Source: Saccharopolyspora sp. NFXS83 (lineage in GTDB: Bacteria > Actinomycetota > Actinomycetes > Mycobacteriales > Pseudonocardiaceae). Taken from it: 64,000 nucleotides of DNA. The notes beneath the pieces are model-generated. The model had not been told where the DNA came from, searched no databases, and was given only the letters and a program-made list of their open reading frames with translations. The translations under genes and the position numbers were made by a program. Position 1 is the first letter of the stretch. Every line of letters starts with the position of its first letter. Positions 27,677 to 62,209 of the stretch are shown piece by piece. Location: positions 1-64,000 of the forward strand of contig NZ_JAPFGB010000015.1 of the NCBI RefSeq assembly GCF_026241095.1, written 5' to 3'.

Positions 27677-28438
27677 ATGGAGATCCGTTTGCTCGGTTCG
27701 GTGGCATTGAGTTCGGGAAGTGACGACTCGCTCGTCGGCGTTCCGTCGGGGAAAGTTCGCACAGTGTTGGCCGTGCTGGCGTTGTCGCCGGCGAAGTCAA
27801 TTGCATCCGAACAATTCGTGGATGAACTCTGGTTGGACAAACCGATCGGCAACGCGCGCAACGCGTTGCAGGCCAACATCGTGCGGTTGCGCAAGTTCTT
27901 GGAGCGACGCACCGGCCGGGCGGGTGACGAGTTGGTGCGCACGGTCCAGGGCGGCTACCGGCTGGACGTGGACCCGCAGACGGTGGACGCCGAGCGGTTC
28001 GTGGCGCTGGCCGAGCGGGGCGGCGAGCTCGTCGACTCGCATCCGGAGCAGGCCGTCGTGCTGCTGGAGCGCGCGCTGCGGCTGTGGCGCGGGCCTGCGC
28101 TGCTGGACACCGACACGCTGCGCTGCCGGTTGGAGGCGGTGCGGCTCGACGAGCGCAGGCTCACCGCCCAGGAAGACCTGATCACCGCCAAGCTGGCCAT
28201 CGGCCAGGAGCGCGCCGTGGTCTCCGAGCTGCGCAGGCTTACCGCCGAGTACCCGGAGCGGGAGCGGTTCAGCGGGCAGCTGATGGTCGCGCTCTACCGC
28301 AACGGCAGGCAGACCGAGGCGGTCAACGTCTTCCACCGGACCAGGCAGCGACTGGTGCGCGACTTGGGGCTGGAACCCGGCCGTGAACTGCGCAAGCTCT
28401 ATGAATCGATCTTGATTCAAGATCAGGTGCTCGGCTGA
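27677..28438 (+). CDS. SARP-family pathway activator 1
   Basis: A 253-residue SARP: OmpR-type winged helix at the N-terminus (MEIRLLGSVAL, VLAVLALSPAKSIASEQFVDELW, ALQANIVRLRKFLE, GGYRLDVDPQTVDAERF) followed by the bacterial transcriptional activator domain (BTAD; ALRLWRGPALLDTDTLR, FSGQLMVALYRNGRQTEAVNVFHRTRQRLVRDLGLEPGRELR). It lacks NB-ARC/TPR extensions, so it is a small cluster-specific SARP. ATG 27677 is chosen (GTG 27653 possible). It is the first gene of the cluster and may bind the heptamer triplets at 37648, 44419 and 60886. Confidence 0.9.
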   Translation: MEIRLLGSVALSSGSDDSLVGVPSGKVRTVLAVLALSPAKSIASEQFVDELWLDKPIGNARNALQANIVRLRKFLERRTGRAGDELVRTVQGGYRLDVDPQTVDAERFVALAERGGELVDSHPEQAVVLLERALRLWRGPALLDTDTLRCRLEAVRLDERRLTAQEDLITAKLAIGQERAVVSELRRLTAEYPERERFSGQLMVALYRNGRQTEAVNVFHRTRQRLVRDLGLEPGRELRKLYESILIQDQVLG

Positions 28439-28506
28439 GGCGCCAGGTCCCGGGGAGGACCGGGCGCGCACGCCGGCATCAAGACGATTCGTGAATGGGG
28501 TGACAC

Positions 28507-29307
28507 GTGGAGTACCGGATTCTGGGCCCGGTGGAGGTGCTGCGGGACGATGGCGAGCGGGTCGTGCTGGACGGGACGAAGCAGCGGACGGTGCTGGCCG
28601 CCCTGCTGATCTCCGGGCCGAACCTGCTCTCGGACGCGCGGCTCAGCGAGTTCCTGTGGGGCAGGCGCCCGCCCGCGACCAGCACTGCGCAGATCTACAC
28701 CTACGTCTCCCGGTTGCGGAAGCTGCTGGGCCACGAGGTGGCCATCGGGCGCCGCTCGCCCGGATACGTGCTGGACATCGGGGACGGCAGGCTCGACCTC
28801 GCGGAGTTCGAGCAGTGCGTGCGGCTGGGGCAGGACGCGTTGGCGGCGGCCCGCTGCGAGGAGGCGGTGCGGCACTTGCGGCGCGCGCTGGGCCTGTGGC
28901 GCGGCCCGGCGCTGGTCGACGTCGCGGAGTCGCTGGCCGCCGAGGAGGACGCTCGGTTGCAGGAGTTGCGGCTGGTCGCGCTCGAAGGCCTGGTGGAGGG
29001 CGAACTGGTGCTGGGCGGGCATGCGCGGCTCACCGCGGAGCTGTTCGGGCTGGTGCGCCTGCACCCGCTGCGAGAGCGGTTCCGCGCGCAGCTGATGATC
29101 GCGCTGCACCGCTGTGACCGGCAGGCCGAGGCGCTGGCCCTCTACGACGAGGGGCGGCGGTTGCTGGCCGCGGAGTTGGGCGTGGACCCGGGGGTGCGGT
29201 TGCGCCGGGCGCACCACGCGGTGCTGACGGCCGACGCGGCCGATCCGATCTCGCTGGAACCGCCGCGGGAATCGGTCCGGGCCGGTGCCGCCACGCTGCG
29301 AATATAG
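28507..29307 (+). CDS. SARP-family pathway activator 2
   Basis: A 266-residue SARP with the same two-domain layout (MEYRILGPVEVL, TVLAALLISGPNLLSDARLSEFLW, YVSRLRKLLG; BTAD with ALGLWRGPALVDVAE and LMIALHRCDRQAEALALYDEGRRLLAAELGVDPG). It follows SARP 1 by 68 bp. Tandem SARPs often act in series or on different promoters. GTG 28507 is the start. The two differ enough to be distinct rather than a recent duplication. Confidence 0.88.
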   Translation: MEYRILGPVEVLRDDGERVVLDGTKQRTVLAALLISGPNLLSDARLSEFLWGRRPPATSTAQIYTYVSRLRKLLGHEVAIGRRSPGYVLDIGDGRLDLAEFEQCVRLGQDALAAARCEEAVRHLRRALGLWRGPALVDVAESLAAEEDARLQELRLVALEGLVEGELVLGGHARLTAELFGLVRLHPLRERFRAQLMIALHRCDRQAEALALYDEGRRLLAAELGVDPGVRLRRAHHAVLTADAADPISLEPPRESVRAGAATLRI

Positions 29308-29320
29308 AAATCCCATATCC

Positions 29321-29343
29321 CCGAGTCGCAGTGTTGGACTCGG
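29321..29343 (+). terminator. Short hairpin after SARP 2
   Basis: CCGAGTC (29321-29327) and GACTCGG (29337-29343) form a 7-bp stem with a 9-nt loop, 14 bp after the SARP 2 stop. It may attenuate or terminate transcription ahead of the PKS operon; no T-run follows. Confidence 0.4.
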
Positions 29344-29449
29344 TAGAACGGTCCGGGTGCGCTGGGGGCGCCCCTCGTCGCTGGCGCGATTTCGCGTCCC
29401 CCGAGTTCTCCGGTTTGCATTTCGCTATTCCACGAGAATGGGAGCTGAC

Positions 29450-29713
29450 ATGACCACCACGAATGCTCGGGTCGACGAGGCCGGTCGCGGGAAGATCAAG
29501 GAAATCGTCTGCGACATTCTTGAGATCGAACCCGCGGACATGACCGACACCAGCCTGTTCAAAGACGATCACGGTGCCGATTCGATGGGTGCCATCGAGA
29601 TCCTCTCCGCGTTGGAGAGCACCTTCGACGTCACGATCGAGCAGTCCGAGCTCACCCGCATGGTCAACCTGGACAACGTGGTGGCGGTCGTCAACGACGC
29701 GCCGGCCAACTGA
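29450..29713 (+). CDS. Acyl carrier protein of the type II PKS
   Basis: An 87-residue ACP. The phosphopantetheine serine is Ser45 in GADSMGAIEIL, inside the usual four-helix pattern (IKEIVCDILEIEP ... ESTFDVTIEQSEL). ATG 29450 is preceded by GGGAGCT. It stands first in the PKS operon, 27 bp before the KS. It would carry the growing polyketide chain of the KS/CLF pair. Confidence 0.9.
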   Translation: MTTTNARVDEAGRGKIKEIVCDILEIEPADMTDTSLFKDDHGADSMGAIEILSALESTFDVTIEQSELTRMVNLDNVVAVVNDAPAN

Positions 29714-29740
29714 GCCGTCCACCGGGGAACGGGGCGAGCA

Positions 29741-30991
29741 GTGAGCGAGCAGCAGCAGACCCACCGCCGGGTCGTGATCACCGGTCTGGGCGTGGTGACC
29801 TGCCTGGGGGTCGGCGTCGAGGAGTTCCGCGATGGGCTGCGGTCCGGGCGCAGCGGGGTGACGCCGCTCGTCAGTTTCGACACGACCGGCTTCGCGCACG
29901 CGAACAGTTGTGAGATCACCGAGTTCGCTCCGGCGGAGTACATGCACCGGGTCGACCCGGAGGAGCTGGGGCGGGCCAGCCAGTTCTCGGTGGCCGCCGC
30001 GCGGATGGCCGCTGAGGACGCGGGGATGCCGCTGGACCTGCTGCGGCGGCAGCGGGCGCTGGTCTCGGTCGGCACCACCGACGCCGAGTCCCGCGACCTC
30101 GACGGCCTGGTGGCCGACCAGCTCGCGGACGGGCCGGAGCAGTGGGACCCGGTGCGGGCGCGGCGGGCGACGGCCGGGCGGTTGTCCACCAGCATCGTCC
30201 GCGAGCTGGAGTTGACCGACGTCGAAGCCGTCACCATCCCCACCGCTTGCGCGGCGGGGAACTACGCGATCGGCTACGGCTTCGACGCGATCCGCGAGGG
30301 CGACGTGGAGGTCGCGCTGTGCGGCGGGGCGGACGCGGTCTGCCGCAAGACGTTCACCGGTTTCTACCGGCTGGGCACCATCGCGCCCGAGGTGTGCCAG
30401 CCGTTCGACCTGGACCGCAAGGGGATCCTCACCGGTGAGGGCGCCGGGATCCTGCTGATGGAAAGCCTGGAATCGGCGCAGGCGCGCGGCGCGCGGATCT
30501 ACGCCGAGGTGCTGGGCTACGGCCTCAACTGCGATGCGCACCATCCGGTCGCCCCGGACCAGGGCAGCATCGCGCGGTGCGTGGAGCTGGCACACCGCAA
30601 CGCCGGTGTGACGCCGGAAGAGGTGGACTTCATCTCCGCGCACGGCACCGGGACGAGGGCCAACGATGTCACCGAGGCCGGAGCGATCCGCCAGGTGTTC
30701 GGCACGCCGCCGCCCACGGTGTCCATCAAGTCGATGATCGGGCACACCATGGGCGCGGCGAGCGCGCTGGCGTCGGCGGCGTGCGCGCTGGCGCTCACCG
30801 AAGGTTTCATCCCGCCGACGATCAACCACCGGGAGACCGACCCGGACTGCGGCGTGGACTGCGTGCCGAACGAGGCGCGGCCCGCGCGGCTGTCGGTGGT
30901 GCAGAACAACGCGCTGGCCTTCGCGGGCAACAACGCGGTGCTGCTGCTGGGCAGGCACGACCGGAAGGTCACCGCCGATGCCTCCGCGTGA
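29741..30991 (+). CDS. Type II PKS ketosynthase (KS-alpha, FabF-like)
   Basis: A 416-residue KAS II-type ketosynthase with an intact triad: Cys170 (TACAAGNYAI), His301 (SAHGTGTRANDVTE) and His335 (MIGHTMGAASALA). It condenses malonyl-ACP with the growing chain. Paired with the Cys-less CLF at 32755, it forms the KS-CLF heterodimer of a type II PKS. The associated KR, two dehydratase-like subunits and isomerase indicate a reducing, polyene-forming system rather than an aromatic one (family knowledge from ishigamide, skyllamycin and cinnamoyl-lipid pathways). It overlaps the hydrolase gene by 14 bp. Confidence 0.92.
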   Translation: MSEQQQTHRRVVITGLGVVTCLGVGVEEFRDGLRSGRSGVTPLVSFDTTGFAHANSCEITEFAPAEYMHRVDPEELGRASQFSVAAARMAAEDAGMPLDLLRRQRALVSVGTTDAESRDLDGLVADQLADGPEQWDPVRARRATAGRLSTSIVRELELTDVEAVTIPTACAAGNYAIGYGFDAIREGDVEVALCGGADAVCRKTFTGFYRLGTIAPEVCQPFDLDRKGILTGEGAGILLMESLESAQARGARIYAEVLGYGLNCDAHHPVAPDQGSIARCVELAHRNAGVTPEEVDFISAHGTGTRANDVTEAGAIRQVFGTPPPTVSIKSMIGHTMGAASALASAACALALTEGFIPPTINHRETDPDCGVDCVPNEARPARLSVVQNNALAFAGNNAVLLLGRHDRKVTADASA

Positions 30992-31784
30992 CGGGGGTGC
31001 GCTGCGGCTGCGCCGTCCCGCCGAGGAGCCGGGCGCGCCGCGGGCGATCCTGCTGCACGGGTTGGCGGGCCGGGCGGACGTGTGGCGACCGTTCCTGGAC
31101 CGCGCCCCCGAGGACTGGGAGTGGTGGGACGTCGAGCTGCCCTGGGCGGGCATGGCCGACCCCACTTGGGCGCACCGGGGCGATCCGGTGGAGCTGCTCG
31201 CGGCGGCCCTGGACGGGCAGCACTTCGACCTGGTCGTCGCGCACTCCTTCGCGGCGAACCTGGTCACCGAGGCCGGTTCCCGCGGTTGGTTCCGGGAGCT
31301 GCCCGCGGTGCTGGTCAGCCCGTTCTACCGGCCCCGCGCCGACGAGTTCGACTGGTCCTCGATCAGCTACTACCTCAACGAGTTCCACCGCACGTTCCTG
31401 GAAGCGATGACCCTCGGTGAGACCGCGCGGTTCCCGGCGAACTACCGGACCTGGATGGCGCACCGGTTGCGCGACTGGGTCGGGCCTTACGGCTGGATGC
31501 GCTTCTTCGACACCTACCTGCGAAGTCCGCTGGTGGACCTGTCCACGACCACCGCCGCGCGGCTGGTCGTGGTGGGCGAGCAGGACATCGCCGCGCGTCC
31601 GGAGGACGGGCGGGCGCTCGCCGAGGCACTCCCGGACGGGCGGCTCGCGCGGCTTCCCGGGTGCGGGCACTTCCCGATGGCGCAGGACGCCGACGGGTTC
31701 TCCCGTGCCGTCGTGGACTTCCTGACCACGCTGCCGAGCGAACGCCGGCGGCACGAACCCGAACCGAGCATGGAGTTGATGTGA
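30978..31784 (+). CDS. Alpha/beta-hydrolase (thioesterase-like)
   Basis: A 268-residue alpha/beta-hydrolase: oxyanion segment LLHGLAGRADVW, nucleophile elbow VVAHSFAANL with candidate Ser, acid VVGEQD and His in GCGHFPMAQD. The elbow reads A-H-S-F-A instead of G-x-S-x-G, which occurs in the BioH/MenH group. It may act as a type II editing thioesterase or as a chain-release enzyme for the reducing PKS. It is translationally coupled to neighbours (ATG 30978 lies inside the KS gene; the stop overlaps the next GTG). Confidence 0.75.
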   Translation: MPPRDGGALRLRRPAEEPGAPRAILLHGLAGRADVWRPFLDRAPEDWEWWDVELPWAGMADPTWAHRGDPVELLAAALDGQHFDLVVAHSFAANLVTEAGSRGWFRELPAVLVSPFYRPRADEFDWSSISYYLNEFHRTFLEAMTLGETARFPANYRTWMAHRLRDWVGPYGWMRFFDTYLRSPLVDLSTTTAARLVVVGEQDIAARPEDGRALAEALPDGRLARLPGCGHFPMAQDADGFSRAVVDFLTTLPSERRRHEPEPSMELM

Positions 31785-32758
31785 ACGCCAACAGCAATGC
31801 CGTCGTGACCATCGAGCGCGGCACCGCACCGGACACCACCCGGACCGAGCTGCGCCCCCGCTACGAGGGCTCGAACATCTGCACCTGGATCGGTTTCAAG
31901 CACGTCAACTTCATGGTCGAGGAGGCCGTGCTGGACCACCTGCGCCGGCGCGGGTTCCCGGCGGGCGCGCTCTACGAGCGGTACGGGCTGTGCACCGACA
32001 TCTCCGCGATCGACACCAAGATCCTCACCGCTTTCCACATCGACGACCTGGCCGTCGCCGAGGTCCGCCCGGTCGCCGGGGCCGGTTCGGGGATGTCCTT
32101 CGAGGTGGAGCTGACGGTGCAGCGGGCGGAGCAGGTCAAGGCGGTGACCGCGAAGGTGACCGTCTCCTTCCGCGCCGACGACCGCGGCCTGCCGGTGGAG
32201 CCGGTCCCAGCGGAGCTCGCCGAGCACGTCGTCGCCGAGCTGGGGCGCCCCGCCGAGGCCGTCGAGGTCGGCGACCGGGATCCGATCGAGCTGCTCACCG
32301 AGGGCGCCAACGCCTTCGGTTGGGCGTGGCGGATGCCGTACTTCTACTGCCACTTCACCGAGCGGGTGCAGATGTCCGGCTACCTGCGCCAGATGGAGGA
32401 GGTCGTGGACCTCTTCCTCGCGGACCGCGGGGTGTCCATCAAGAAGTTGCTGGACGAGCAGGACTGGATCCCGGTCGTGCCGCACTCCCGGATCGAGCTG
32501 CTCGGGGAAGCGCGGATGGAGGAGGAGCTCTACACGATCTTCACCGTGGAGCGGGTGTTCAAACGCCTCACCTACACGGCGCGGATGGACTGCTACGTGC
32601 TGCGGGACGGCGTGCTGGTGCCGACCGCGACCGGGCGGATCACGCACGGCTACGCGGTGATCGACAACCGCCGGGACTGGTCGCTGGTGGACTTCGACGA
32701 CCAGATGCTCGCGGCCCTGGGCGGCGGGAGCGGTGCGGCGGAGGGGCGCGGGCGATGA
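31781..32758 (+). CDS. Double hot-dog thioesterase/dehydratase-like protein
   Basis: A 325-residue soluble protein that appears to consist of two hot-dog domains: the first around WIGFKHVNFMVEEAVLDHLR (residues 36-56), the second around YFYCHFTERVQMSGYLRQMEEVVDLFL (about 187-213), similar to 4-hydroxybenzoyl-CoA-thioesterase/FAT-like folds. The exact activity (acyl-ACP thioesterase, dehydratase or non-catalytic) cannot be told. Its place between the hydrolase and CLF, with 4-nt overlaps on both sides, ties it to the reducing type II PKS. Confidence 0.6.
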   Translation: MNANSNAVVTIERGTAPDTTRTELRPRYEGSNICTWIGFKHVNFMVEEAVLDHLRRRGFPAGALYERYGLCTDISAIDTKILTAFHIDDLAVAEVRPVAGAGSGMSFEVELTVQRAEQVKAVTAKVTVSFRADDRGLPVEPVPAELAEHVVAELGRPAEAVEVGDRDPIELLTEGANAFGWAWRMPYFYCHFTERVQMSGYLRQMEEVVDLFLADRGVSIKKLLDEQDWIPVVPHSRIELLGEARMEEELYTIFTVERVFKRLTYTARMDCYVLRDGVLVPTATGRITHGYAVIDNRRDWSLVDFDDQMLAALGGGSGAAEGRGR

Positions 32759-33879
32759 CGGCGATCGCCGCGGACGACCACCGCGTCGGAGGCGGTGAGC
32801 TGGTGCTCTCGGCCTGGTCGGCGGTGTCCCCGTTCGGCGTCGGGCGTGCGGCGTTCGAGGCGGGCATCGCCGGTGGCCGCGGCTGCGTGGCGGAGCTGGA
32901 CGAGTCGGCCGGGCCGTTCCGCCGGGGCGGGGTGATCCCGGACTTCGCCGCCGCAGAACAGCTGGGCCGCAAGGGAACCCGTTCGATGGACCGGGTCACC
33001 GCGATCTCGGTGAAGACCGTCGGGGTACTGCTGGAGGAGTGCGGTCCGGAGCTCACCGCGGAGTCCGACCGGCTGGCGCTGACCTGGGGGACCGGATCGG
33101 GCAGCGCGCAGAGCATCATGGACTTCACCCGGGACTCGCTGACCGGGGCGAAACCGTTCCACGTGGACCCGGCGAAGTTCCCGAACACCGTGATGAACCG
33201 GGCCGCCGGGCAGAGCGCGATCTGGCACTCCATCAAGGGCCCGAACACCACGATCGCGGGCGGCGCGCTGACCGGGTCGCTGGCGCTGCGCAACGGTGTG
33301 CGGCTGGTGCGCGGCGGGCACTGCGACCGGGTGGTGTTCGGCGCCTCCGAGGAGCACACCCCGCAGCGCTCCTGGCTGGAGTGGCGGGCCGTGGACGGCC
33401 GGGCCGAGGACGGCTGGGCGCTGGGGGAAGGCGGTGCGGCCTTCCTGCTGGAGCCCGCCGCGGACGCCGCCGAGGCGGGCCGAACACCGTTGGCGAGGGT
33501 GCTCGGCAGCCGGTTCCGGGCGTTCGGTGAGCCGGGCCGGGCGGACCGGGCGCTGGCCGGGTGCGTGCTGGCGAACCTCACCGAGACCGGTGCGCGGGCC
33601 GGTTCGGTGCGGGTGGTGGCTCCGCTGGACGACACGGGCGAGTGGGGCGAGCGGGAGCGCGCGGTGCTCGACGAGCTGGTGCCGGACGCCGAGCGGGTGC
33701 GACCGCGAACGCTCATCGGGGACACCTCGGCCGCGGCCGGGGCGATGCAGCTGGCCGCCGTGCTGGCCTGGGCGCAGGCACGCGGAACCGAGCCGGGCGA
33801 CCTGGCGTTGATCACCGGGATCGAGCGGGACGGCACCGTCGGGTCCGTGCTGCTGGCGCTCGGCGGAGGCGGCTCGTGA
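32755..33879 (+). CDS. Chain-length factor (KS-beta) of the type II PKS
   Basis: A 374-residue KS-fold protein whose active-site position has Ala171 instead of Cys (TIAGGALTGSLALRNG), so it cannot form the acyl thioester. This is the diagnostic of CLFs. GSGSAQSIMDF and the C-terminal TSAAAGAMQLAAVLAWA follow the KS fold. It controls chain length as partner of the KS at 29741, from which it is separated by two genes, an unusual arrangement because KS and CLF are normally adjacent. ATG 32755 overlaps the previous stop. Confidence 0.85.
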   Translation: MTAIAADDHRVGGGELVLSAWSAVSPFGVGRAAFEAGIAGGRGCVAELDESAGPFRRGGVIPDFAAAEQLGRKGTRSMDRVTAISVKTVGVLLEECGPELTAESDRLALTWGTGSGSAQSIMDFTRDSLTGAKPFHVDPAKFPNTVMNRAAGQSAIWHSIKGPNTTIAGGALTGSLALRNGVRLVRGGHCDRVVFGASEEHTPQRSWLEWRAVDGRAEDGWALGEGGAAFLLEPAADAAEAGRTPLARVLGSRFRAFGEPGRADRALAGCVLANLTETGARAGSVRVVAPLDDTGEWGERERAVLDELVPDAERVRPRTLIGDTSAAAGAMQLAAVLAWAQARGTEPGDLALITGIERDGTVGSVLLALGGGGS

Positions 33880-34232
33880 TCCGCGTCGAGGTGCGGGCGG
33901 CGACGCGTTCCGAACACGCCGTGTCCGGGACGGTGCGGGTGGATCCGGCGGAACCGGTGTTCGCCGGGCACTACCCGGGCTTCCCGTTGCTTCCCGGCCT
34001 GGCCTTGCTGGACGTGGTGCAGGCCGTCGTGCGCAGCTGCCCCGGCCGGGAGTTCGCGCGACTGGACGGCGTGGAGCGGGTGCGCTTCTTCCACGAGGTC
34101 CGGCCGGGCGACGAGCTCGCGGTCGAAGTGGAGTTCGGCGCGGACGGCGGCTGCGCGGTCGCGATCGGTGGCGAGCAGGGGCGGGTCGCGCAGCTCCGCT
34201 GCGGGCTGCGGGTGCCGGCGGTGGCCGCGTGA
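33876..34232 (+). CDS. FabZ-like dehydratase subunit 1 (HxxGxPxxPG type)
   Basis: A 118-residue single hot-dog protein with HYPGFPLLPGLALLD (catalytic-type His32 in the FabA/FabZ H-x-x-G-x-P-x-x-P-G motif). It lacks the Glu/Asp helix signature of full FabZ. That motif is present in the next protein, suggesting a split or heteromeric dehydratase. GTG 33876 overlaps the CLF stop by 4 nt. It likely dehydrates beta-hydroxyacyl-ACP intermediates. Confidence 0.75.
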   Translation: MIRVEVRAATRSEHAVSGTVRVDPAEPVFAGHYPGFPLLPGLALLDVVQAVVRSCPGREFARLDGVERVRFFHEVRPGDELAVEVEFGADGGCAVAIGGEQGRVAQLRCGLRVPAVAA

Positions 34233-34717
34233 CCGGGCAGGCGGGGATCCGCGCGACGATCCCGCACCGGCACCCGATCCTCCTGGTGGACCGGGTCGTG
34301 TCCGTCGATCCCGGGGCGCGGATCCGCACCCGGAAAGCGATCAGCGGGACCGAGCACTGCTACGCGGGCCTGCCGGAGGACGCGCCGGAGGCGGAGTACG
34401 CCTACCCGCTGAGCCGGTTGCTGGAGTCCTGGGCCCAGTCCGCGGTGCTGCTGGCGAGCTGGCAGCGGCCGAACGCGGACGTGCTCACCGGGCAGGTGGA
34501 ACTGCTGACCGGGCTGCGCGGCGTCGAACTGCTGGAACCGGTGTTTCCGGGTGACGTGGTGGAGCACGAGGTGATCGCGGTGCGGGAACTGCCCGACGCG
34601 GCGATCTTCCGCGGCGAGTGCGCGGTGGACGGCCGGATCGCCGTCCGGGTCGGGCAGCTGACCGTGGCGCGGCGCGGGGCCGAGGTGTTGCGCCCCGGCG
34701 GAGCGGACGCTCGATGA
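34229..34717 (+). CDS. FabZ-like dehydratase subunit 2 (LLESWAQS type)
   Basis: A 162-residue hot-dog protein starting IRATIPHRHPILLVDRV (the FabZ N-terminal motif) and carrying LSRLLESWAQSAVLL with the catalytic-type Glu66. The usual H-x-x-x-F-P-x-x-P-G box is degenerate (YAGLPEDAPEAEYAYP), complementing the preceding subunit, which has that box but not the Glu helix. A heterodimeric dehydratase is the simplest reading. Overlaps both neighbours' frames by 4 nt at the start. Confidence 0.75.
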   Translation: MTGQAGIRATIPHRHPILLVDRVVSVDPGARIRTRKAISGTEHCYAGLPEDAPEAEYAYPLSRLLESWAQSAVLLASWQRPNADVLTGQVELLTGLRGVELLEPVFPGDVVEHEVIAVRELPDAAIFRGECAVDGRIAVRVGQLTVARRGAEVLRPGGADAR

Positions 34718-34896: not shown

Positions 34897-35643
34897 ATGT
34901 CCGCGAGTACGCGACCCGTGGCGCTGGTGACCGGCGGCTCGCGGGGGATCGGGCGGCACGTCGTGACCCGGCTCGCCGCCGCCGGGCACGACGTGGCGCT
35001 GTGCTACCAGTCCGACGTGGACGCTGCCGCCGAGGTGGCGGAGCTGGCCGCCGAGTCCGGTGCCGCGGTGCTGGTCCGGCAGGTCGACGTGGCGGAGCGC
35101 GCCGAAGTCGACCGGTTCGTCAAGGACGCCGAGAAGGAGCTCGGCCCCGTGGAGTCCGCGGTGGCCTGCGCCGGGATCGTCAAGGACAACCCGATGGCGC
35201 TGCTCAAGGACGAGGACTGGTCCCGGGTGCTGCGGGTGAACCTGGACGGCACCTACAACCTGTGCAAGTCGGTGCTCTTCCCGATGATCAAGCGGAAGCG
35301 CGGTTCCGTGGTGACGTTGTCCTCGGTCGCCGGGGTGCACGGCAACGCGACGCAGGCGAACTACTCGGCGTCCAAGGCCGGGATCATCGGGCTCACCAAG
35401 GCGCTGGCCAAGGAGGTCGGCCGCTACGGGATCCGGGTGAACGCGGTGGCGCCCGGGTTCATCGAGACCGACATGCTCGCCGGACTCTCCGAGCAGGCGC
35501 TCGCGGCGTCGACCGCGGCGGTTCCGCTGGGGAGGCTGGGGCGCCCGGAGGAGGTCGCGGACCTGGTGGAGTTCCTGGTCTCGGACCGCGCCTCGTACCT
35601 GACCTGCCAGGTGCTGCAGCTCGACGGAGGGCTGGTCCTGTGA
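34897..35643 (+). CDS. Ketoreductase (FabG-type SDR) of the PKS
   Basis: A 248-residue SDR: VALVTGGSRGIGRHV cofactor loop, NADPH-type, catalytic Ser in TLSSVAG, Tyr156 and Lys160 in YSASKAG, plus the NAVAPGFIETDM segment. It reduces beta-ketoacyl-ACP to beta-hydroxyacyl-ACP. ATG 34897 is chosen because AAAGAGGTGGGG directly precedes it; ATG 34882 is in frame upstream. It overlaps the isomerase by 4 nt. Its presence makes the type II PKS reducing. Confidence 0.9.
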   Translation: MSASTRPVALVTGGSRGIGRHVVTRLAAAGHDVALCYQSDVDAAAEVAELAAESGAAVLVRQVDVAERAEVDRFVKDAEKELGPVESAVACAGIVKDNPMALLKDEDWSRVLRVNLDGTYNLCKSVLFPMIKRKRGSVVTLSSVAGVHGNATQANYSASKAGIIGLTKALAKEVGRYGIRVNAVAPGFIETDMLAGLSEQALAASTAAVPLGRLGRPEEVADLVEFLVSDRASYLTCQVLQLDGGLVL

Positions 35644-37647: not shown

Positions 37648-37676
37648 CGTCAGCGTCGCGTCAGCTTTCCGTCAGC
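37648..37676 (+). promoter_or_regulatory. SARP operator 1: three CGTCAGC heptamers at 11-bp spacing
   Basis: CGTCAGC occurs at 37648-37654, 37659-37665 and 37670-37676, exactly 11 bp apart. This is the geometry of SARP-binding direct repeats, one helical turn each. ACGCT lies 11 bp beyond the last base, comparable to AGCAT at the two sister sites and possibly the -10. It precedes the KAS III/ATP-grasp operon. Confidence 0.8.
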
Positions 37677-41678: not shown

Positions 41679-41680
41679 GC

Positions 41681-52600: not shown

Positions 52601-55600
52601 TGGGTGCGCTGGAGTCGCTCACCCCGGAGCAGCGCCTGGAGGTCGTGCGCTTCGGCGGGACCATCACCGAGTTCTCGCGCGCGGTCGCCCCGGACCTGCT
52701 GGCCGAGCAGGCCCGCGAACGCCCGGAGCACGAGGCCGTGGTCTTCGGCGCGGATTCCCGCAGCTACGGCGAGCTCGCCGGGCGCGCGAACCGGCTGGCC
52801 CGCTGGCTCATCGCGCGCGGTGCCGAGCCGGAAGGCCTGGTCGCGCTGGTGCTGCCGCGCTCGCACCTGATGGTGGAGGCGGTGGCCGGGGTGCTGGCCA
52901 GCGGCGCGGCCTACCTGCCGGTGGACCCGAAGCTGCCCGCCGAGCGGATCGAGCACATGCTCGCCGACGCCCGCCCCGCGCTCGTGCTGGGCACCGGCGA
53001 CACCCTCGCCGCACTGTCCGATGCGGACGTTCCGGCGGTGGCGCTGGACGGCGTCCAGGACGAGCTCGCCGCGTTCGACGACGGTCCGGTGACCGACGCG
53101 GAGCGGACCCGCCCGCTGCTGCCCGAGCACCCGGCCTACGTCATCTACACCTCCGGCTCCACCGGCCGCCCCAAGGGCGTGCTGGTCCCGCACGGCTCGC
53201 TGTGCGCGATGATCGCCGGCCACGGCGAGCGGTTCGGCGTGGACCGCGACAGCCGGATGCTGCTGTTCGCCTCGTTCAGCTTCGACGCCTCGGTGTGGGA
53301 GATCGGACTCGCGCTGCTGCGCGGCGGCACCCTGGTGCTCACCGACGACGAGACCCGGATGCCGGGCGAGCCGCTGGTGGACCTGATCTCCGCCGCGGGC
53401 ATCACGCACATCGGCATCCCGCCGGTGGTCGCCTCCTCGCTGCCCCCGGGCAGCGAACTGCCCGCCGGGCTCACCGTGGTGGTCGCGGGCGAGGCCTGCT
53501 CCGCCGAAGTGGTCGCCCGCTGGGCGGACCGGGTGCGGCTGTTCAACGGCTACGGGCCCACCGAGGCCGTGGTCGGCGCGACGATCAGCGGCCCGCTGTC
53601 GGGCGATCAGCGCCCGCCGATCGGCGAACCCACCACCGCGCACCGGGTGTACGTGCTCGACGCGGCGCTGCGCCCCGTTCCGGTCGGCGCCGTCGGCGAG
53701 ATCTACCTCAGCGGCGGGCTCGCCCGCGGCTACCTGGACCGGCCCGGCCTCACCGCCGAGCGGTTCGTGGCCGACCCGTTCCGGGACGGCGGCGAGCGGA
53801 TGTACCGCACCGGCGACCTCGGCCGGTGGCGCCCGGACGGGCAGTTGGACTACGCGGGCCGCTCCGACGACCAGGTGCAGCTGCGCGGGTTCCGCATCGA
53901 GCTCGGCGAAGTCGAGTCGGTGCTCGGCTCCCACCCCGAGGTGGAGCAGGCCGTGGTCGTGGTCCGCGAGGACGAGTCGGGCGACAAGCGGCTCGTCGGC
54001 TACGCGGTCACCGCCGGCGGCGAGGGCGTGCTGCCGCGCGGCCTGCGCGAGCACCTCGCCGACTCGCTGCCGGACTACATGGTCCCGGCCGCGCTGGTGG
54101 CGCTCGGCTCCTTCCCGCTGACCTCGCAGGGCAAGGTGGACCGGGCCGCGCTGCCGGAACCCGAGTCCGCGCCGCGGGCGGGCCGCGCGCCGCGCACCCC
54201 GGTGGAGGAGATCCTCTGCCACGTCTTCGCCGACGTGCTCGGGGTCCCGCAGGTGAGCATCGACGACGACTTCTTCGCCGCCGGTGGGCATTCGCTGCTG
54301 GCGACCCGCGTGGTGGGCCGGGCGCGTTCGGCGCTGAACGTGGAGCTGCCGATCAAGGACCTGTTCGAGGCGCGCACGGTCGCCGGGCTCGCCGAGCGGG
54401 TCGGCGGGGCCGAGCGCGCGCGGCGACCGCTGCGACCGGCCGACCGCACTGGTCGGCTCCCGCTGTCCTACGCGCAGCGCAGGCTCTGGTTCCTCAACCG
54501 GCTGGAATCGGCGAGCACCGGCACCTACAACGTGCCGCTCGCGCTGCGGCTGACCGGGGAGCTCGACGTGGCGGCGATGCGCGCGGCGCTCGGCGACGTC
54601 GTCGCCCGGCATGAGAGCCTGCGCACCGTCATCCCGGACGACGACGGATTGCCGCACCAGCAGGTGCTGCCCGCGGCCACCGCGCGACCGGACCTGCCGG
54701 TGCTCGACCTCGGCGAGGCCGAGCTGGGCGAGCGGCTGACCGCCGAGGCCGACCGCGGCTTCGACCTGAGCGCCGAAGCGCCGCTGCGCGCTCAGGTGTT
54801 CCGGCTCGAACCCGGCGAGCACGTGCTGCTGCTGGTGCTGCACCACACCGCGTTCGACGGATGGTCCATCGCGCCGCTGACCCGCGACCTCACGTCGGCC
54901 TATCGGGCGCGCTGCGCGGGGAAGGCGCCGCACTGGACGCCGCTACCGGTGCAGTACACCGACTACGCGGTCTGGCAGCGGGAGGTGCTGGGCGCCCCGG
55001 ACGACCCGGACAGCGCGCTCGCGCGGCAACTGGAGCACTGGACGCGGGCGCTCGCCGGACTGCCCGAGGAACTGGCGCTGCCGACGGACTTCCCGCGTCC
55101 CGCCGTCGGCGGCAACCACGGCGACGAGGTCGAGTTCGTCGTGGAACCCGAGCTGTACCAGGGACTTCTGGCGGTCGCGCGGGAATCCGGGGTCACCGCG
55201 TTCATGGTCTTCCAGGCCGCGCTGGCCGTGCTGCTGACCAGGCTCGGCGCCGGGACGGACATCCCGGTGGGCAGCCCGATCGCGGGCCGCACCGACGAGG
55301 CCACCGACGACCTGGTGGGCTTCTTCGTCAACACCATCGTGCTGCGCACCGACACCTCCGGGGACCCGGAGTTCGGCGAGCTGCTGCACCGGGTGCGCGA
55401 GGCCGGCCTCGGCGCCTACGCCCACCAGGAGGTGCCCTTCGAGCAGGTCGTGGAGGCGTTGAACCCGCGCCGCTCGCTGTCCCGGCACCCGCTGTTCCAG
55501 GTGATGCTGGTGCTGCAGAACGACCAGGACGAGCAGGCCGCGCTGCCGGGCCTGGACGCGCGGGTGCAGCCGGTGGTCTCGCCGCGCGCCAAGTTCGACC

Positions 55601-58479
55601 TCACGGTGCAGCTCGACGAGCTGCACGCGGGCGGCGCGCCGGACCGCGTGCGGGGCGCGCTGGAGTACAGCACCGACCTGTTCCGCCGGGAGACGGTGGC
55701 CGCGCTGGCGCAGCGGTTCCTGCGGGTGCTCGCCGCGGTCGCCGCGGACCCGTACCGGCGGCTCAGCGAGCTGGACGTGCTGCTGCCCGGCGAGGAAGCG
55801 GAACTGCGGAGCACCGGCACCGGAGCGGTCGTCGCCGACGCCGCGGACGGCGTGGTGGAACGGGTGCGCGAGCGCGCCGCCCGCACCCCGGACGCGATCG
55901 CCGTCGCCGACGACACCGGCGAGGTGAGCTACGCGGCGCTGGTCGCGCGGGCGAGCGCGCTGTCCCGGCGGCTGCCGGGCGCGGGCCCGGTCGGCGTGCT
56001 GGCCGCACCCGGGGCGGGCTTCGTCACCAGCGTGCTGGGCGTGCTCGGCGCCGGTGGCGCGTTCGTCCCGCTGGACGTGCACGCACCGCGTCCGCGACTC
56101 GCCGCGCTGCTCACCGACAGCGGCGCCCGGCACGTGGTGGCGGACGCGGCGCACGCGGAGCTCGCCGGGGAGGTCGTCGCGGACTCGGGCGCCGCGGTCG
56201 AGGTGGTGGTGCTCGACGGCGTGGAGGACGCGGAGCTCGCACCGGCGCTGGGCTCCGGCCTGGACCTGGGCTACGTGATCTTCACGTCGGGCTCGACGGG
56301 CCGCCCGAAGGGGGCGATGGTGCACCGGCGCGGCATGGTCAACCACCTGCTCGCCAAGGTGGAGGACCTGGCGCTGGTGGAGGGCGACGTGCTGGTGCAC
56401 AACGCCCCGGTCACCTTCGACATCGCGGTGTGGCAGATGCTCGCGGGCCTGCTCACCGGCTCCCGGGTCCGGGTCGTTCCCCGAGAGGTGGCCGCGAACC
56501 CGGACGCGCTGTTCGCGCTGATCGGCTCGGACGGCGTGAGTGTGCTGGAGGTGGTGCCCACGCTGCTGCGGGCCGCCCTCGACTCCTGGGACACCGGGAC
56601 GGCACCGGACCTGACGGGGCTGCGCCGGCTGGTGGTCACCGGCGAGGCGCTGCCGCCGGACCTGTGCGCCCGCTGGTTCGCCCGGTTCCCGGAGATCCCG
56701 CTGCTCAACGCCTACGGGCCCACCGAGTGCTCCGACGACGTCACGCACGCGGTGCTCACCGCCTCCGACGTGATCGGAGGCAGCCGCGCCCCGATCGGGC
56801 GTCCGGTGCGCAACACCCGGCTCTACCTGCTCGACGACCACCTGCGGCTGGTCCCGGCCGGGGTGGTGGGGGAGCTCTACGTCGGCGGAACCGGTGTCGG
56901 CCGCGGCTACCTGGACGACCCGGCCAAGACCGCGCAGACCTTCCTGCCCGACCCGTTCGCGGCCGACGGATCGCGGATGTACCGCACGGGCGACCGGGTG
57001 CTGCAGCGGCCGGACGGGCAGCTGGAGTTCCTGGAACGGCGGGACTTCCAGGTGAAGATCCGCGGCCACCGCATCGAGCTCGGCGAGATCGAGGTAGCGC
57101 TGCGCGGCCTGGACCGGGTCGGTGACGCCGTGGTGGACGTGGTCGTCGACTCCGACGGGCACAAGCGGCTCGTCGGCCACCTGGTCGCCGCCGACGCGGA
57201 CGGCGTCGAGGTCGATCAGGTTCGCGACCGGCTCGCCCAAGTGCTCCCGGAGTACATGGTGCCGTCGGCTTGGGCGGTGCTGGCGGCGATGCCGACCACC
57301 GCGCACGGCAAGGTCGACCGCGCCGCGCTGCCCGCCCCCGACCTCACCGGCGAAGCCCGCGGCCGGGAACCGCGCGGCCCGGTGGAGCAAGCGCTGTGCG
57401 GCATCCTCGCCGACGTGCTCGGGCTGTCCGGGGTCGGCGCGGAGGAGAACTTCTTCGCCGTCGGCGGTGACAGCATCACCTCGATCCAGGTGGTCAGCCG
57501 CGCCCGCACGGCCGGGATCCCGCTGGTGGTGGCCGACTTGTTCGTGCACCAGAACGTCGCCGCGCTCGCCCTCATCGCGCGGCAGCGCGAGCAGGAAGCG
57601 GGCGAGGACGCGGTCGAGGCGATGGAGCGGGTCTTCGACGAGGTCCGCGACACCGAGGGCACCGATCCGTTCGGCACCGTCCTCGCGATGCGCCCGGACC
57701 GCCCGCTGGCGCCGGTGTTCTGCCTGCACAGCGGGGTCGGTTTCAGCCTCCCGTACGTGGGGCTGACCGCGCACCTGGGCGACCGCCCGATCTACGGCCT
57801 GCAAGCGCCGGGGATCACCGAGCTCGCCGAGATCCCGGAGACGCTGCCCGAACTGGCCGCCGACTACGCCCGCCGGATCCGGGACATCCGCCCGGAAGGC
57901 CCGTACCACCTGCTCGGCTGGTCCTTCGGCGGCGTCCTCGCGCACGAGATCGCGGTGCGGCTGCAGTCCGAGGGCGCCGAGGTCGGCGTGGTCGCCGACC
58001 TCGACGCCTACCCGCCGGAACCGGACGAGGGCGATGACGACGAGCAGGCGATGCTCGGCTGGGTCTGGGAGCTGATCGGCCACGAGCGGGCCGAGCTCAC
58101 CGGCGACCGGCTCACCGACGACCGCATCGCCGACACCCTGGAGCAGGACGGCAACCCGCTCGCCGGGATGGGCCGCGACCGGGTGCTGGCGATGCTGCGG
58201 GTGATGCGCGCGCACTCGCGGATGTCGGTGCGCCACCGGCCCGGGGTGCTGCGCGGCTCGATGCTGCTGTTCACCGCCACCGACGGGCTCTCCGAGCAGG
58301 AGGTCGAGGCGAAAGCCCTGCGGTGGGCGCCGCACGTGGACGGTGCCGTGCACGCGCACCGGATCGAGTGCGGGCACGACGACATGATGGACGCGGAACC
58401 GCTGGCCCGGATCGGTGCCGCGGTGGCCGCCGAGCTCGACCGGGTGGACCGGTCGCAGTCGGGAGGGGAACGATCGTGA
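46678..58479 (+). CDS. Trimodular NRPS: C-A-T-E / C-A-T / C-A-T-TE
   Basis: A 3933-residue NRPS. C1 (HHLLCDG, His152); A1 (about 460-960; IFTSGSTG near 607; Asp657); T1 Ser1009; E (about 1030-1480; HHLAVDG His1196, EGHGR, VGWFAS, GYGLLRY, FNYLGRF); C2 (HHVVLDG, His1687); A2 (about 2010-2500; Asp2203); T2 Ser2539; C3 (HHTAFDG, His2722); A3 (about 3060-3560; Asp3248); T3 Ser3599; TE (GWSFGG, Ser3749). By GrsA alignment A1 and A3 share the pocket D-I-W-E-V-T-A-D-D, whose three extra acids suit a cationic side chain, plausibly Dap. A2 reads D-A-W-G-V-A-G-V-G (unassigned). C1 likely takes an acyl starter. ATG 46678; the stop overlaps the ABC permease. Confidence 0.93.
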
Positions 58480-59300
58480 GCGCAACAGCCGGCATCGCGG
58501 TGCCGGGCGGACCCGGTGCCGTGCTCACCGAGGTGGCCGCGGTGGCCGGGCGGAGGCTGCGCCACCTGCGCCGAGCCCCCGGCCGGTTCATCGGGATCAC
58601 GTTGAACCCGCTGGTGTCGATCCTGGTGCTGGGCTACCTGTTCCAGAGCTCGATCACCATCCCGGGCGGAGGCGACTACCAGGAGTACCTGTTCGCGGGG
58701 GCCGCGCTGCAGGTGGGGTTGGCAGGGGTGGGGCCGACCGCGATCGCGGTCGCCTCGGACCGGCAGGGCGGGCTGATCGACCGGTTCCGCTCGCTGCCGA
58801 TCTCCCGCGCGTCCGTCCTGTTCGGACACACCTGCGCGGACTTCCTGGTGGGGCTGGTCGGCCTGGTGGTGGTCACCGCGGTGGGCCTGCTGCTGGGCTG
58901 GCGCCCGCACACCGGGCCGCTGCAGGTGCTCGCGGGATTCGGGCTGCTGGCGGTGTTCCTCTACGTGATGCTCTGGGTCGGCGTGCTGCTGGGCATGGTG
59001 CTGCACAGCCTGGAATCCATCGACTCGCTCGCGCCGCTCATCGCGGTGGTGTTCCCGTTCCTGTCCAACGCTTTCCTGTCCGAGCAGAACCTGCCGGGCT
59101 GGCTGGTGCCGGTGGCCGCGTGGAACCCGATCAGCGCCGTCGCCACCGCCTGTCGGCAGCTGTGGGGCAACCCGGTCACGACCGGCACCGGATTTCCCTC
59201 CGAGCACCCGGGAATCGTGGTGCTGGTGACGCTGGCCGTGCTGTTCGCGGTGACCACCTGGATCAGCCTGCGCCGCTACCGCGACACCGCCGCTGGATGA
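58476..59300 (+). CDS. ABC-2 type permease (DrrB-like exporter subunit)
   Basis: A 274-residue membrane protein with six hydrophobic segments and the ABC-2 pattern: [19 protein letters not shown], the [31 protein letters not shown] loop and [15 protein letters not shown] near the C-terminus, typical of DrrB-type antibiotic exporters. GTG 58476 overlaps the NRPS stop by 4 nt. Its ATPase partner is probably the gene at 61256, in the other SARP-controlled operon. Likely exports the product and gives self-protection. Confidence 0.85.
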
Positions 59301-59478: not shown

Positions 59479-59597
59479 AGGACGAGGACGACCGGACTCG
59501 GGGAGGAGCCGGGTTGTTCAGGTCAAGTGCGGCATCCGCCGCCGACCGGACGAGGAATAGCGAACATGACTCGAGTTGAAGGACGGGCAGTGCACCG

Positions 59598-60809: not shown

Positions 60810-60885
60810 CCCGGGGAGCCAGGTCAACGGCCCCCCGCCCGACGGGATCGGGCCGGTGGGCCGCTCACCTCGATCGGGCGGAAGG

Positions 60886-60914
60886 CGTCAGGGGTTCGTC
60901 AGCGGGTCGTCAGC
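60886..60914 (+). promoter_or_regulatory. SARP operator 3: three CGTCAG(G/C) heptamers at 11-bp spacing
   Basis: CGTCAGG (60886-60892), CGTCAGC (60897-60903) and CGTCAGC (60908-60914) at exact 11-bp spacing, with AGCAT beginning 11 bp past the last base. It lies 75 bp before the mbtH gene. Confidence 0.8.
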
Positions 60915-60988
60915 CCGGGTGGTGAGCATGGCAGGGCGGCCCCTGCGCGGAGGCCGACGCCGGCGAGCGAACCAGAGGAGCGTTCGAG

Positions 60989-61207
60989 ATGACGAACCCT
61001 TTCGACGACCAGGACGGCACGTTCGCGGTGCTGGTCAACGACGAGGAGCAGCACAGCCTGTGGCCGTCCTTCGCCGCGGTGCCCGCCGGCTGGCGGGTCG
61101 CGCTGGACGGGGCGAGCAGGCGGGCCGCGCTGGACTACGTCGCGGAGCACTGGACCGACCTGCGGCCCAAGAGCCTCCGCGAGCAGGCGGGTACCTCCGC
61201 CCGGTGA
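60989..61207 (+). CDS. MbtH-like protein
   Basis: A 72-residue MbtH-family protein: [31 protein letters not shown] and [11 protein letters not shown], with the conserved Trp pattern. MbtH proteins bind and activate NRPS adenylation domains; this one presumably serves the NRPS at 46678. ATG 60989. It heads a small operon with the ABC ATPase. Confidence 0.95.
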
Positions 61208-61273
61208 CCCCGGGCGGTCCTTCGAACAGCGGAGCCGCGGCGGCGCGGCGACCGCGTGGGAGTGCGCGTGGAC

Positions 61274-62209
61274 ATGGGGATCGAGGCCGAAGGCCTCCGC
61301 AAGCGCTATCGGGGACATGAGGCGCTGCGCGGCGTCGACCTCGCGGTGCCGCCGGGGTCGGTGCTGGGGTTGCTCGGGCCGAACGGCGCTGGCAAGACCA
61401 CGGCGGTGCGGACGCTGGCGACGCTGCTGGAACCCGACGAGGGCCGGGCGCGCGTCGCGGGCCACGACATCGCCCGGGAGCCGAACGAGGTGCGCAGGCG
61501 GATCGGGCTCGCCGGGCAGCACGCGGCGGTGGACGAGTTGCTGACCGGCCGGGAGAACCTGGTCCTGATCGGCCGGCTGCTGCACCTGGGGCGTCGTCGC
61601 GCCCGCGCGCGGGCCGCTGAGCTGCTGGAGCGGTTCGAGCTGATCGAGGCCGCCGATCGACCGCTGGGCACCTACTCCGGGGGGATGCGCCGCCGCTTGG
61701 ACTTGGCGAGCTGCCTGGTCGGAGATCCGGCGGTGCTGTTCCTGGACGAGCCGACGACCGGCCTCGACCCGGCCAGCCGGGCGACGTTGTGGGAGATGGT
61801 GCGGGAGCTGGTGCGCGACGGGGTCGCGGTGCTGCTGACCACCCAGTACCTGGAGGAGGCGGATCAGCTCGCGGACCGGATCGCGGTGATCGCCGCCGGG
61901 GAGATCGTCGCCGACGGCACCCCCGACGAGCTCAAGCGCAAGGTCGGCGGCGAGTGGCTGGAAGTCGTGGTGGCGTCGCCGGAGCGGGCGGGCGCCGCGC
62001 TGGCCGTGCTGCGGCCGGTGGCGGCGGAGCGTCCCGTGCTGGACGACTCGGATGGCCGGATCCGGCTGCGGCTGCGCGACGGTGTCGCCGGCTTGGAGCG
62101 GGCGGCGGGCGCGTTGCGGACCGCGGGGGTGGAGGTCAGCGATTTCGCGCTGCGCCGGCCGACGCTGGACGACGTGTTCTTCGACCTGGTGGGGCGCTCG
62201 GCGAAGTGA
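61274..62209 (+). CDS. ABC transporter ATPase (DrrA-like)
   Basis: A 311-residue ATPase in DrrA style: Walker A GPNGAGKTTAVRTL, signature YSGGMRRRLDLA, Walker B AVLFLDEPTTGLD, and a C-terminal extension ending ALRRPTLDDVFFDLVG, as in DrrA-type drug exporters. It probably pairs with the permease at 58476. Start is uncertain: GTG 61256 would add six residues; ATG 61274 is preferred here. It shares the SARP-controlled transcript with mbtH. Confidence 0.9.
   Translation: MGIEAEGLRKRYRGHEALRGVDLAVPPGSVLGLLGPNGAGKTTAVRTLATLLEPDEGRARVAGHDIAREPNEVRRRIGLAGQHAAVDELLTGRENLVLIGRLLHLGRRRARARAAELLERFELIEAADRPLGTYSGGMRRRLDLASCLVGDPAVLFLDEPTTGLDPASRATLWEMVRELVRDGVAVLLTTQYLEEADQLADRIAVIAAGEIVADGTPDELKRKVGGEWLEVVVASPERAGAALAVLRPVAAERPVLDDSDGRIRLRLRDGVAGLERAAGALRTAGVEVSDFALRRPTLDDVFFDLVGRSAK

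Follow-up and report, generated by a model that had tools for sequence, protein, structure and literature searches.

The question raised by the gene cluster at about 27.7–62.2 kb of the analyzed DNA of Saccharopolyspora sp. NFXS83 is whether a type II polyketide synthase (PKS), an aminoacyl-acyl carrier protein (aminoacyl-ACP) cassette and a nonribosomal peptide synthetase (NRPS) serve one product there, and how the chain made by the first could be joined to the peptide made by the last. The window, i.e., the whole stretch of 64,000 nucleotides, comprises bases 1–64000 of contig 7 of a 70-contig assembly (6.9 Mb, 97% complete); all genes called from about 27.65 kb up to its end lie on the plus strand. 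The cluster also includes SbnA and SbnB, a cytochrome P450, an MbtH-like protein and an ATP-binding cassette (ABC) exporter (Table 1; gene starts were taken from a simple codon-usage caller, and components were named via gene calls and Pfam/NCBIfam profiles). It is probably a single cluster for a lipopeptide in which a polyenoyl or cyclised aryl chain is followed by the rare linker dehydro-β-alanine (Dba, from aspartate), D-2,3-diaminopropionate (D-Dap), a residue X and L-Dap. The inventory of the initial annotation was confirmed: the PKS set with every one of its subunits, the BtrK-like cassette, SbnA/SbnB, the domain order of the NRPS, the P450, MbtH and the split ABC exporter. Three further cassette genes (41729–44273) and an MMPL transporter gene that starts at 63707 and continues past the end of the window come in addition to that inventory.

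The PKS genes (29450–36338) encode an ACP, a ketosynthase (KS), a chain length factor (CLF), a ketoreductase (KR), two FabA/FabZ-like proteins and an isomerase. Among solved structures KS and CLF are closest to Iga11 and Iga12, and they are accompanied by an ACP, a KR and a dehydratase, as in the iga system of ishigamide. Judged by sequence, this would be an iga-type highly reducing type II PKS with a predicted polyene output. In clusters of cinnamoyl peptides the isomerase is thought to enable a 6π electrocyclisation (PMC6510318). Neither an aromatising desaturase nor a phytoene-dehydrogenase-like gene was recognised in the window cluster; given the lack of the former, the acyl chain could be either a polyene or an aryl group. 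The second FabZ-like subunit resembles AmcE, the cyclising decarboxylase of cispentacin (E 5e-14, under the curated cut-off).

Ishigamide is 3-(13-hydroxytetradeca-2,4,6,8-tetraenamido)propanoic acid, a polyenoyl amide of β-alanine (PMC11022428), and its MIBiG entry, BGC0001623, is of the class 'NRP + Polyketide' (PMC11085741). Iga11 was searched in the 70 genomes of one genus group (that of G301, which holds locus L059; K. xanthocidica also belongs to it), where 20 had a KS at E ≤ 1e-120, five of them at 90–92% identity. Three of these five, G351, G360 and G371, were read. In G351 the KS (92% identical to Iga11), CLF and KR stand beside SbnB, SbnA, MbtH and two NRPSs with the orders C-A-T-E-C-A-T and C-A-T-C-A-T-TE (C, condensation; A, adenylation; T, thiolation; E, epimerization; TE, thioesterase), and the same contig carries the cassette at a distance of about 33 kb from the KS (4.4 kb between the stretches not included). 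G360 and G371 contain the PKS, Dap gene(s) and NRPS, the cassette being absent from the stretches read. Since an Iga11-orthologous locus holds all three modules, ishigamide may be a hydrolysed N-acyl-β-alanyl intermediate, a shunt of a longer lipopeptide pathway. The same locus speaks against the suggestion of the initial annotation that no described product uses all the modules; their combination varies on a family that is already on record. Among the papers listed in the literature searches, none dealt with the three-module combination, and none of those searched mentions ishigamide alongside enamidonin, autucedine, bolagladin or kutzneridine. An NRPS region of S. rimosus has been reported to contain 61% of the ishigamide-cluster genes (PMC9045324, strain ATCC 10970; PMC13098539). 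Another strain of this species, NRRL WC-3904 (L069), carries the cassette together with SbnA/B and an NRPS, and has no PKS-type KS at E ≤ 1e-100; the simplest assumption is that these elements account for the shared genes.

The cassette opens with a β-ketoacyl-ACP synthase III (KAS III)-like enzyme, an ATP-grasp ligase, a pyridoxal phosphate (PLP)-dependent decarboxylase and a free-standing ACP (37784–41678), followed by three further genes (41729–44273), the last of which encodes an acyl-CoA-dehydrogenase-like flavoenzyme. Among solved structures, the decarboxylase is closest to BtrK (E 2.9e-96). An ACP, a BtrK-like decarboxylase, a KAS III-like enzyme and an acyl-CoA dehydrogenase thus occur together, as in the starter cassette of bolagladin. 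In that system, as described in PMC7756342, deletion of bolN (BtrK-like) abolishes production, deletion of bolQ (acyl-CoA dehydrogenase) yields β-alanine in place of Dba, the KAS III homologues are proposed to perform N-acylation, and N-acyl-dehydro-β-alanine is the proposed NRPS starter. For olenamidonin and autucedine, a 3-oxoacyl-ACP synthase is proposed to join acyl groups to dehydro-β-alanyl-ACP, and the olenamidonins and their enamidonin/autucedine relatives carry dehydro-β-alanine beside D-Dpr and L-Dpr (PMC11204786). Desaturation is placed before N-acylation in the olenamidonin paper (PMC11204786) and after it in the bolagladin one (PMC7756342). By analogy with these pathways, aspartate is most likely the amino acid loaded.

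The KAS III relatives were filtered by bit score and length before alignment; Cys114 is kept in 88 of the 88 aligned sequences (window included), His235 in 87 of 88 and His266 in 88 of 88. The FabH triad is Cys-His-Asn, and here His266 takes the position of the catalytic Asn. This Cys-His-His KAS III is likely an amide-forming enzyme that passes the polyketide from a carrier protein to an amine held on another. The proteins of 41729–42523 and 42520–43113 gave no family match in Pfam or NCBIfam; their structures were predicted with high confidence (mean pLDDT 93.0 and 94.3, respectively). The former adopts the fold shared by KAS III enzymes and thiolases (best match E 1.2e-10, root mean square deviation (rmsd) 11.0, TM 0.53 by query length), and PqsBC, a precedent for a KAS III heterodimer, is among its structural matches. 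The latter (197 aa) has the fold of an acyl-CoA dehydrogenase, about 175 columns being aligned to proteins of about 370 residues (best match E 2.6e-4, TM 0.49 by query length, rmsd 6.9). By analogy with the KS/CLF pair, they are proposed to be partner proteins of KAS III and the dehydrogenase.

The Dap supply could be provided by SbnA and SbnB, which are encoded by adjacent genes and exceed the curated cut-offs (TIGR03945, 386.5 bits against 349.95; TIGR03944, 421.8 against 326.9). The first and third A domains of the NRPS have identical codes, DIWEVTADDK, which we take to be a Dap code. Together with SbnA/SbnB the identical codes make two Dap positions reasonable, in agreement with the two Dap residues of the initial annotation. 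The code of the second A domain was hand-read as DAWGVAGVGK (position 278 is I from the script and G by hand), presumably a pocket of Trp/kynurenine type; our guess for residue X is a bulky aromatic one such as Trp. As in enamidonin-type systems, one module, C-A(Dap)-T-E, would install D-Dap and another would also use Dap; for those systems the structure of the known peptide implies four modules with adjacent Dap-Dap, whereas the window has three modules in the order Dap-X-Dap. Trp as X is also suggested by a gene with a tryptophan-halogenase motif, which lies near SbnB in five relatives; a further, more distant one occurs in S. lycii (Pfam Trp_halogenase was confirmed only for the Dactylosporangium gene); products of these relatives may contain halogenated Trp. 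When the own genome was searched for a tryptophan halogenase, the single match was weak, spanned 62 residues and lay on a different contig, and chlorination of the window product was dropped because this match is weak and partial.

The modules share regulatory sites. Direct repeats spaced by 11 bp are typical binding sites of Streptomyces antibiotic regulatory proteins (SARPs). The pattern GTCAG-N6-GTCAG-N6-GTCAG (27 bp) has exactly three matches in the assembly, all on the plus strand and all in the cluster, at 37649 (before KAS III), 44420 (before SbnB) and 60887 (before MbtH), and the reversed control pattern has none across the assembly. With up to two mismatches permitted, the window count is three versus 0.04 expected by shuffling. 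The operators described earlier for the cassette, SbnB–NRPS and MbtH–exporter operons are thus real and, as exact matches, unique to this cluster within the assembly. In a survey of 12 related sequence sets from 11 genomes (up to two mismatches; five shuffles per set, keeping base composition only, gave a mean of 0 to 0.6 matches), the operator was located 5' of the KAS III gene in eight of the nine sets having that gene, 5' of SbnA or SbnB in 10 of 11, and 5' of the PKS ACP gene in seven of 10, so that the PKS half carries the same operator in most of these relatives.

The decarboxylase query retrieved 267 relatives in named bacterial genomes, of which the best 80 were read. The cassette order (KAS III, ATP-grasp, decarboxylase, ACP, the two proteins without a family, g45 and g46, and acyl-CoA dehydrogenase) recurs in 42 of these 80 loci, a count that skips genes without a window homologue; several of the 80 are short or rearranged. 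A PKS-type isomerase gene lies within the fetched flanks of eight. In Amycolatopsis (L041, L043–L046, L052–L055) the cassette is in two parts with a gene for 544–561 aa between them, which in L053 looks phytoene-dehydrogenase-like by eye, and no ATP-grasp homologue is found in the fetched DNA of these loci. Seven isomerase-type relatives were read over longer stretches: Dactylosporangium vinaceum, Streptomyces CB02056, S. lycii, Kitasatospora xanthocidica, Saccharothrix NRRL B-16348, Streptomyces CB02261 and G290. They had been picked because PKS and cassette were seen together (CB02261 for a nearby KS), the isomerase-bearing loci L085, L088 and L103 lying outside this set; each of the seven also has at least one of SbnA and SbnB, together with an NRPS bearing a Dap-type code (the A1 code of Dactylosporangium and several others gave no reading and were left out). 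Dactylosporangium has its PKS, cassette, Dap and NRPS genes arranged collinearly in a single compact run, the FabZ-like pair lying slightly further downstream. In Sciscionella and G118 the PKS is shorter and lacks the isomerase. Of 298 genomes of the own order, 12, the own one included, gave a match to the ATP-grasp and 32 gave a KS at E ≤ 1e-110.

Operators common to the modules, and a union that recurs in other genera, make a single product likely and support the single hybrid cluster of the initial annotation; a chance neighborhood of three modules was rejected on the same two grounds. The cluster family is a recurring one in several actinomycete genera, is chemically unexplored and is related to that of ishigamide.

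What was observed is the gene content, the order of the domains, the operators, the residues of the active sites and the recurrence in other genera; from these the substrates, order of steps and product structure may be deduced as follows. KS-CLF, ACP, KR and the dehydratases would assemble malonyl units into a conjugated polyene, in which the isomerase would set a Z double bond, possibly enabling ring closure to an aryl (cinnamoyl-like) chain. The ATP-grasp enzyme would load an amino acid, most likely aspartate via its β-carboxyl, on the free ACP, and the BtrK-like enzyme would decarboxylate it to β-alanyl-ACP. The Cys-His-His KAS III could then move the polyketide chain to the amine, forming an amide and not a C-C bond, while the acyl-CoA-dehydrogenase-like enzyme could form the dehydro-β-alanyl unit before or after N-acylation. 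The NRPS would accept N-acyl-dehydro-β-alanyl-ACP as a starter and add D-Dap, X and L-Dap, with Dap derived from SbnA/SbnB. The product, which is most likely polyenoyl/cyclised aryl-NH-CH=CH-CO-(D-Dap)-X-(L-Dap), could be released by the TE, perhaps as a macrolactam via a Dap amine, tailored by the P450 and exported by the ABC and MMPL transporters under SARP control.

Several observations weigh against this scheme, and some of them favor other explanations. The PKS and the rest of the cluster could be two adjacent clusters, one for a polyene or aryl acid and the other for an enamidonin-like Dba-Dap lipopeptide fed by ordinary fatty acids. Each half does occur without the other: in G162 and G168 the PKS operon is accompanied by an NRPS and by no adjacent cassette, in G282 the cassette is about 2.8 Mb distant on the chromosome from the PKS and Dap NRPS, and cassette and Dap NRPS also occur without a PKS-type KS, which five of 18 cassette-bearing genomes do not have at E ≤ 1e-100 (the 18 were hand-picked from the 80 loci, the five because no PKS was seen beside the cassette). 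Among 12 other match stretches read in the own order, cassette and PKS are together only in G290 and G118, and the PKS operon of the window lacks an operator in both the exact and the two-mismatch scans. Against such a division stand the union with a Dap NRPS in all seven extended relatives, its collinearity in Dactylosporangium and the operator 5' of the PKS operon in most of the related sets that cover the ACP gene, which leaves this the least probable of the readings considered. The initial annotation had assumed one cluster with another chemistry: glutamate would be converted to γ-aminobutyryl (GABA)-ACP and used via KAS III as the starter of the PKS, giving an ω-amino polyenoyl chain, perhaps macrolactamised. 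BtrK is indeed named L-glutamyl-[BtrI ACP] decarboxylase, and the operon opens with a KAS III-like gene. However, the cassette exists in the five genomes lacking a PKS-type KS and KAS III has His for the Asn of FabH in every aligned sequence, for which reasons priming of the polyketide by an aminoacyl-ACP was rejected; moreover, the cassette goes on to encode an acyl-CoA dehydrogenase, as does that of bolagladin. The amino acid of ishigamide is β-alanine at the carboxyl end of the chain, the hydroxyl being near the far end (PMC11022428). The precedents of bolagladin, enamidonin and ishigamide favor aspartate and a (dehydro-)β-alanine between acyl chain and peptide instead of a glutamate-derived ω-amine. 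The ω-amino chemistry is probably wrong, and the GABA-primed route is very unlikely.

The topology could also be correct with another linker, i.e., N-acyl-GABA or N-acyl-4-aminocrotonyl from glutamate, or saturated N-acyl-β-alanine. BtrJ and BtrK use glutamate, and the decarboxylase is matched best by BtrK. No close solved relative of the ATP-grasp enzyme was found and its substrate residues could not be read; as it stands in place of the VinN-like adenylating enzyme of bolagladin, BolO, the choice of aspartate is by analogy. The β-alanine of ishigamide is saturated, so that desaturation in a PKS-containing member is likewise by analogy. The pathways nearest by gene content, however, yield (dehydro-)β-alanine, and another linker seems unlikely to us. 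Further points bear on single components of the aspartate-derived dehydro-β-alanyl scheme. The Glu of the EGT motif of the dehydrogenase is E in 71, D in eight and A in one of 80 ungapped rows (seven further rows are gapped), an ATP-grasp homologue was undetected in the fetched DNA of 10 of the 80 loci, the P450 is present in four of the seven extended relatives, and the assignment of X is a weak point. In the family of 41729–42523 a Cys at the aligned catalytic site is kept in only nine of 68 members and the window copy is one of the nine, so that inactivity is less well supported for this copy than for the family as a whole. In the KAS III homologues of bolagladin Ser or Thr replaces Cys, and their chemistry may differ (PMC7756342).

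The lipopeptide with an aspartate-derived Dba linker is still the reading we prefer. A bolder version, which we regard as doubtful but worth stating, is an amide-forming relay in which two pairs of homologues, the Cys-His-His KAS III plus its degenerate relative and the acyl-CoA dehydrogenase plus its truncated counterpart, would act between two carrier proteins: a type II PKS polyene or o-alkyl-aryl chain would be passed onto β-alanyl-ACP and the linker desaturated, ishigamide would be a hydrolysed shunt, and aryl/polyenoyl-dehydro-β-Ala-D-Dap-Trp-L-Dap macrolactams would form a new class. The preferred reading gives a product hypothesis for an orphan cluster family in several actinomycete genera. 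It would explain the probable source of the β-alanine of ishigamide and the presence of NRPSs in such clusters, marks an unusual Cys-His-His KAS III with an adjacent degenerate homologue as likely amide-forming, and predicts lipopeptides structurally near the enamidonins, which are reported to be active against Gram-positive bacteria (PMC11204786).

The features of the region are collected in Table 1. The MMPL transporter from 63707 is a probable member of the cluster. Between the exporter and this gene (62552–63534) a small coiled-coil protein and a PF13796 'Sensor' membrane protein are encoded; S. lycii and K. xanthocidica have homologues close to their own copies of the cluster. A palindromic 23-mer occurs in two cluster gaps, at 34782–34804 (minus strand) 5' of KR and at 59457–59479 (plus strand) between the ABC-2 permease and P450 genes; it resembles miniature inverted-repeat transposable elements or repetitive extragenic palindromes (MITE/REP) and has 90 copies in the own genome (up to two mismatches) versus none for the reversed control. 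Far upstream, 1304–3955 contains a pSAM2-type replication initiator (RepSA) and a phage-type integrase adjoining tRNA-Arg(cct), and is probably the end of an integrative element.

Table 1. Coordinates of the cluster features in the window and of halogenase-motif genes in relatives (ORF, open reading frame; SDR, short-chain dehydrogenase/reductase).
Feature	Position	Strand	Remarks
SARP-family regulator (Trans_reg_C + BTAD)	27653..28438	+	start uncertain: ORF 27653, caller 27764
Second SARP-family regulator	28507..29307	+	
Type II PKS ACP	29450..29713	+	profile match and synteny
KS (KS-alpha)	29741..30991	+	best solved relative Iga11 (ishigamide PKS), 61.5% identity
Alpha/beta hydrolase	30978..31784	+	kept in isomerase-type relatives
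Hot-dog (4HBT_2) protein, candidate dehydratase or thioesterase	31781..32758	+	
CLF (KS-beta)	32755..33879	+	best solved relative Iga12 (6KXD_B), E 1.6e-59; second 9.5e-18
FabZ/ApeI-like dehydratase subunit 1	33876..34232	+	
FabZ/FabA-like dehydratase subunit 2	34229..34717	+	
Ketoreductase (FabG-like SDR)	34918..35643	+	real start probably a little upstream
DsbA-fold polyene isomerase (2-hydroxychromene-2-carboxylate isomerase-like)	35640..36338	+	
LysR-type regulator	36625..37578	+	
SARP-type operator, 5' of cassette operon	37649..37676	+	three GTCAG boxes at 11-bp spacing
KAS III-like enzyme, proposed N-acyltransferase to beta-alanyl-ACP	37784..38713	+	Cys114-His235-His266
ATP-grasp amino acid:ACP ligase	38732..40087	+	PreAtp-grasp
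Predicted BtrK-like PLP decarboxylase for aminoacyl-ACP	40084..41370	+	
Free-standing cassette ACP	41403..41678	+	profile match and synteny
KAS III/thiolase-fold protein, proposed KAS III partner	41729..42523	+	predicted structure
Truncated acyl-CoA-dehydrogenase-fold protein, proposed non-catalytic partner of downstream gene	42520..43113	+	predicted structure
Acyl-CoA-dehydrogenase-like flavoenzyme, proposed N-acyl-beta-alanyl-ACP desaturase (BolQ role)	43110..44273	+	Glu361 in EGT motif
SARP-type operator, 5' of SbnB-SbnA-NRPS-ABC2	44420..44447	+	
SbnB (L-Dap synthesis)	44606..45637	+	TIGR03944 above cut-off
SbnA (L-Dap synthesis)	45669..46658	+	TIGR03945 above cut-off
NRPS C-A(Dap)-T-E-C-A(X)-T-C-A(Dap)-T-TE	46678..58479	+	3933 aa
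ABC-2 permease (DrrB-like)	58521..59300	+	score under curated cut-off
Cytochrome P450	59598..60809	+	
SARP-type operator, 5' of MbtH-ABC ATPase	60887..60914	+	
MbtH-like protein	60989..61207	+	
ABC ATPase (DrrA-like)	61268..62209	+	TIGR01188 above cut-off
MMPL/RND transporter, 5' part	63707..64000	+	63707-65890 on contig; 48% identity to one in iga-orthologous cluster
Tryptophan-halogenase-motif genes in relatives	L084:14357-15949; L062:18157-19749; L047:10413-12005		also Saccharothrix NRRL B-16348, G290

Among known systems, butirosin BtrI/BtrJ/BtrK resemble the ACP, ATP-grasp ligase and PLP decarboxylase of the window at the level of a family match; butirosin biosynthesis uses glutamate for an aminoglycoside side chain and is not known to involve KAS III or acyl-CoA-dehydrogenase partners. 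Skyllamycin and kitacinnamycin clusters have KS, CLF, KR, dehydratases and isomerase adjoining an NRPS (PMC6510318), an arrangement also present in the window, which differs from them by the cassette and Dap synthesis and in that no aromatising desaturase was recognised. The bolagladins (bol, Burkholderia gladioli) are, by their description, similar in the free ACP, BtrK-like decarboxylase, KAS III homologues and dehydrogenase, and differ in VinN-like activation, Ser/Thr KAS III, a citrate-primed fatty acid and a depsipeptide without Dap (PMC7756342). Enamidonin, autucedine and olenamidonin share, again by description, N-acyl-dehydro-β-alanine, D-Dpr and L-Dpr and a 3-oxoacyl-ACP synthase as proposed N-acyl ligase; the acyl chains of olenamidonin are short, branched and saturated, and the available part of the source mentions no type II PKS in the cluster (PMC11204786).

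The ishigamide (iga) system, compared via orthologous loci and the solved Iga11 and Iga12, has its KS/CLF family in common with the window. The orthologous locus possesses SbnA, SbnB, MbtH, a Dap-type NRPS and, about 33 kb off, the cassette, matching the modules of the window, which adds the isomerase, the hydrolase, the hot-dog protein and the FabZ pair. The window CLF is only about 36% identical to the CLFs of iga-orthologous loci, and the NRPS organization also differs, with three modules on one protein in the window (D-Dap-X-Dap) and four on two proteins in the iga-orthologous locus (D-Dap-Dap-X-Y).

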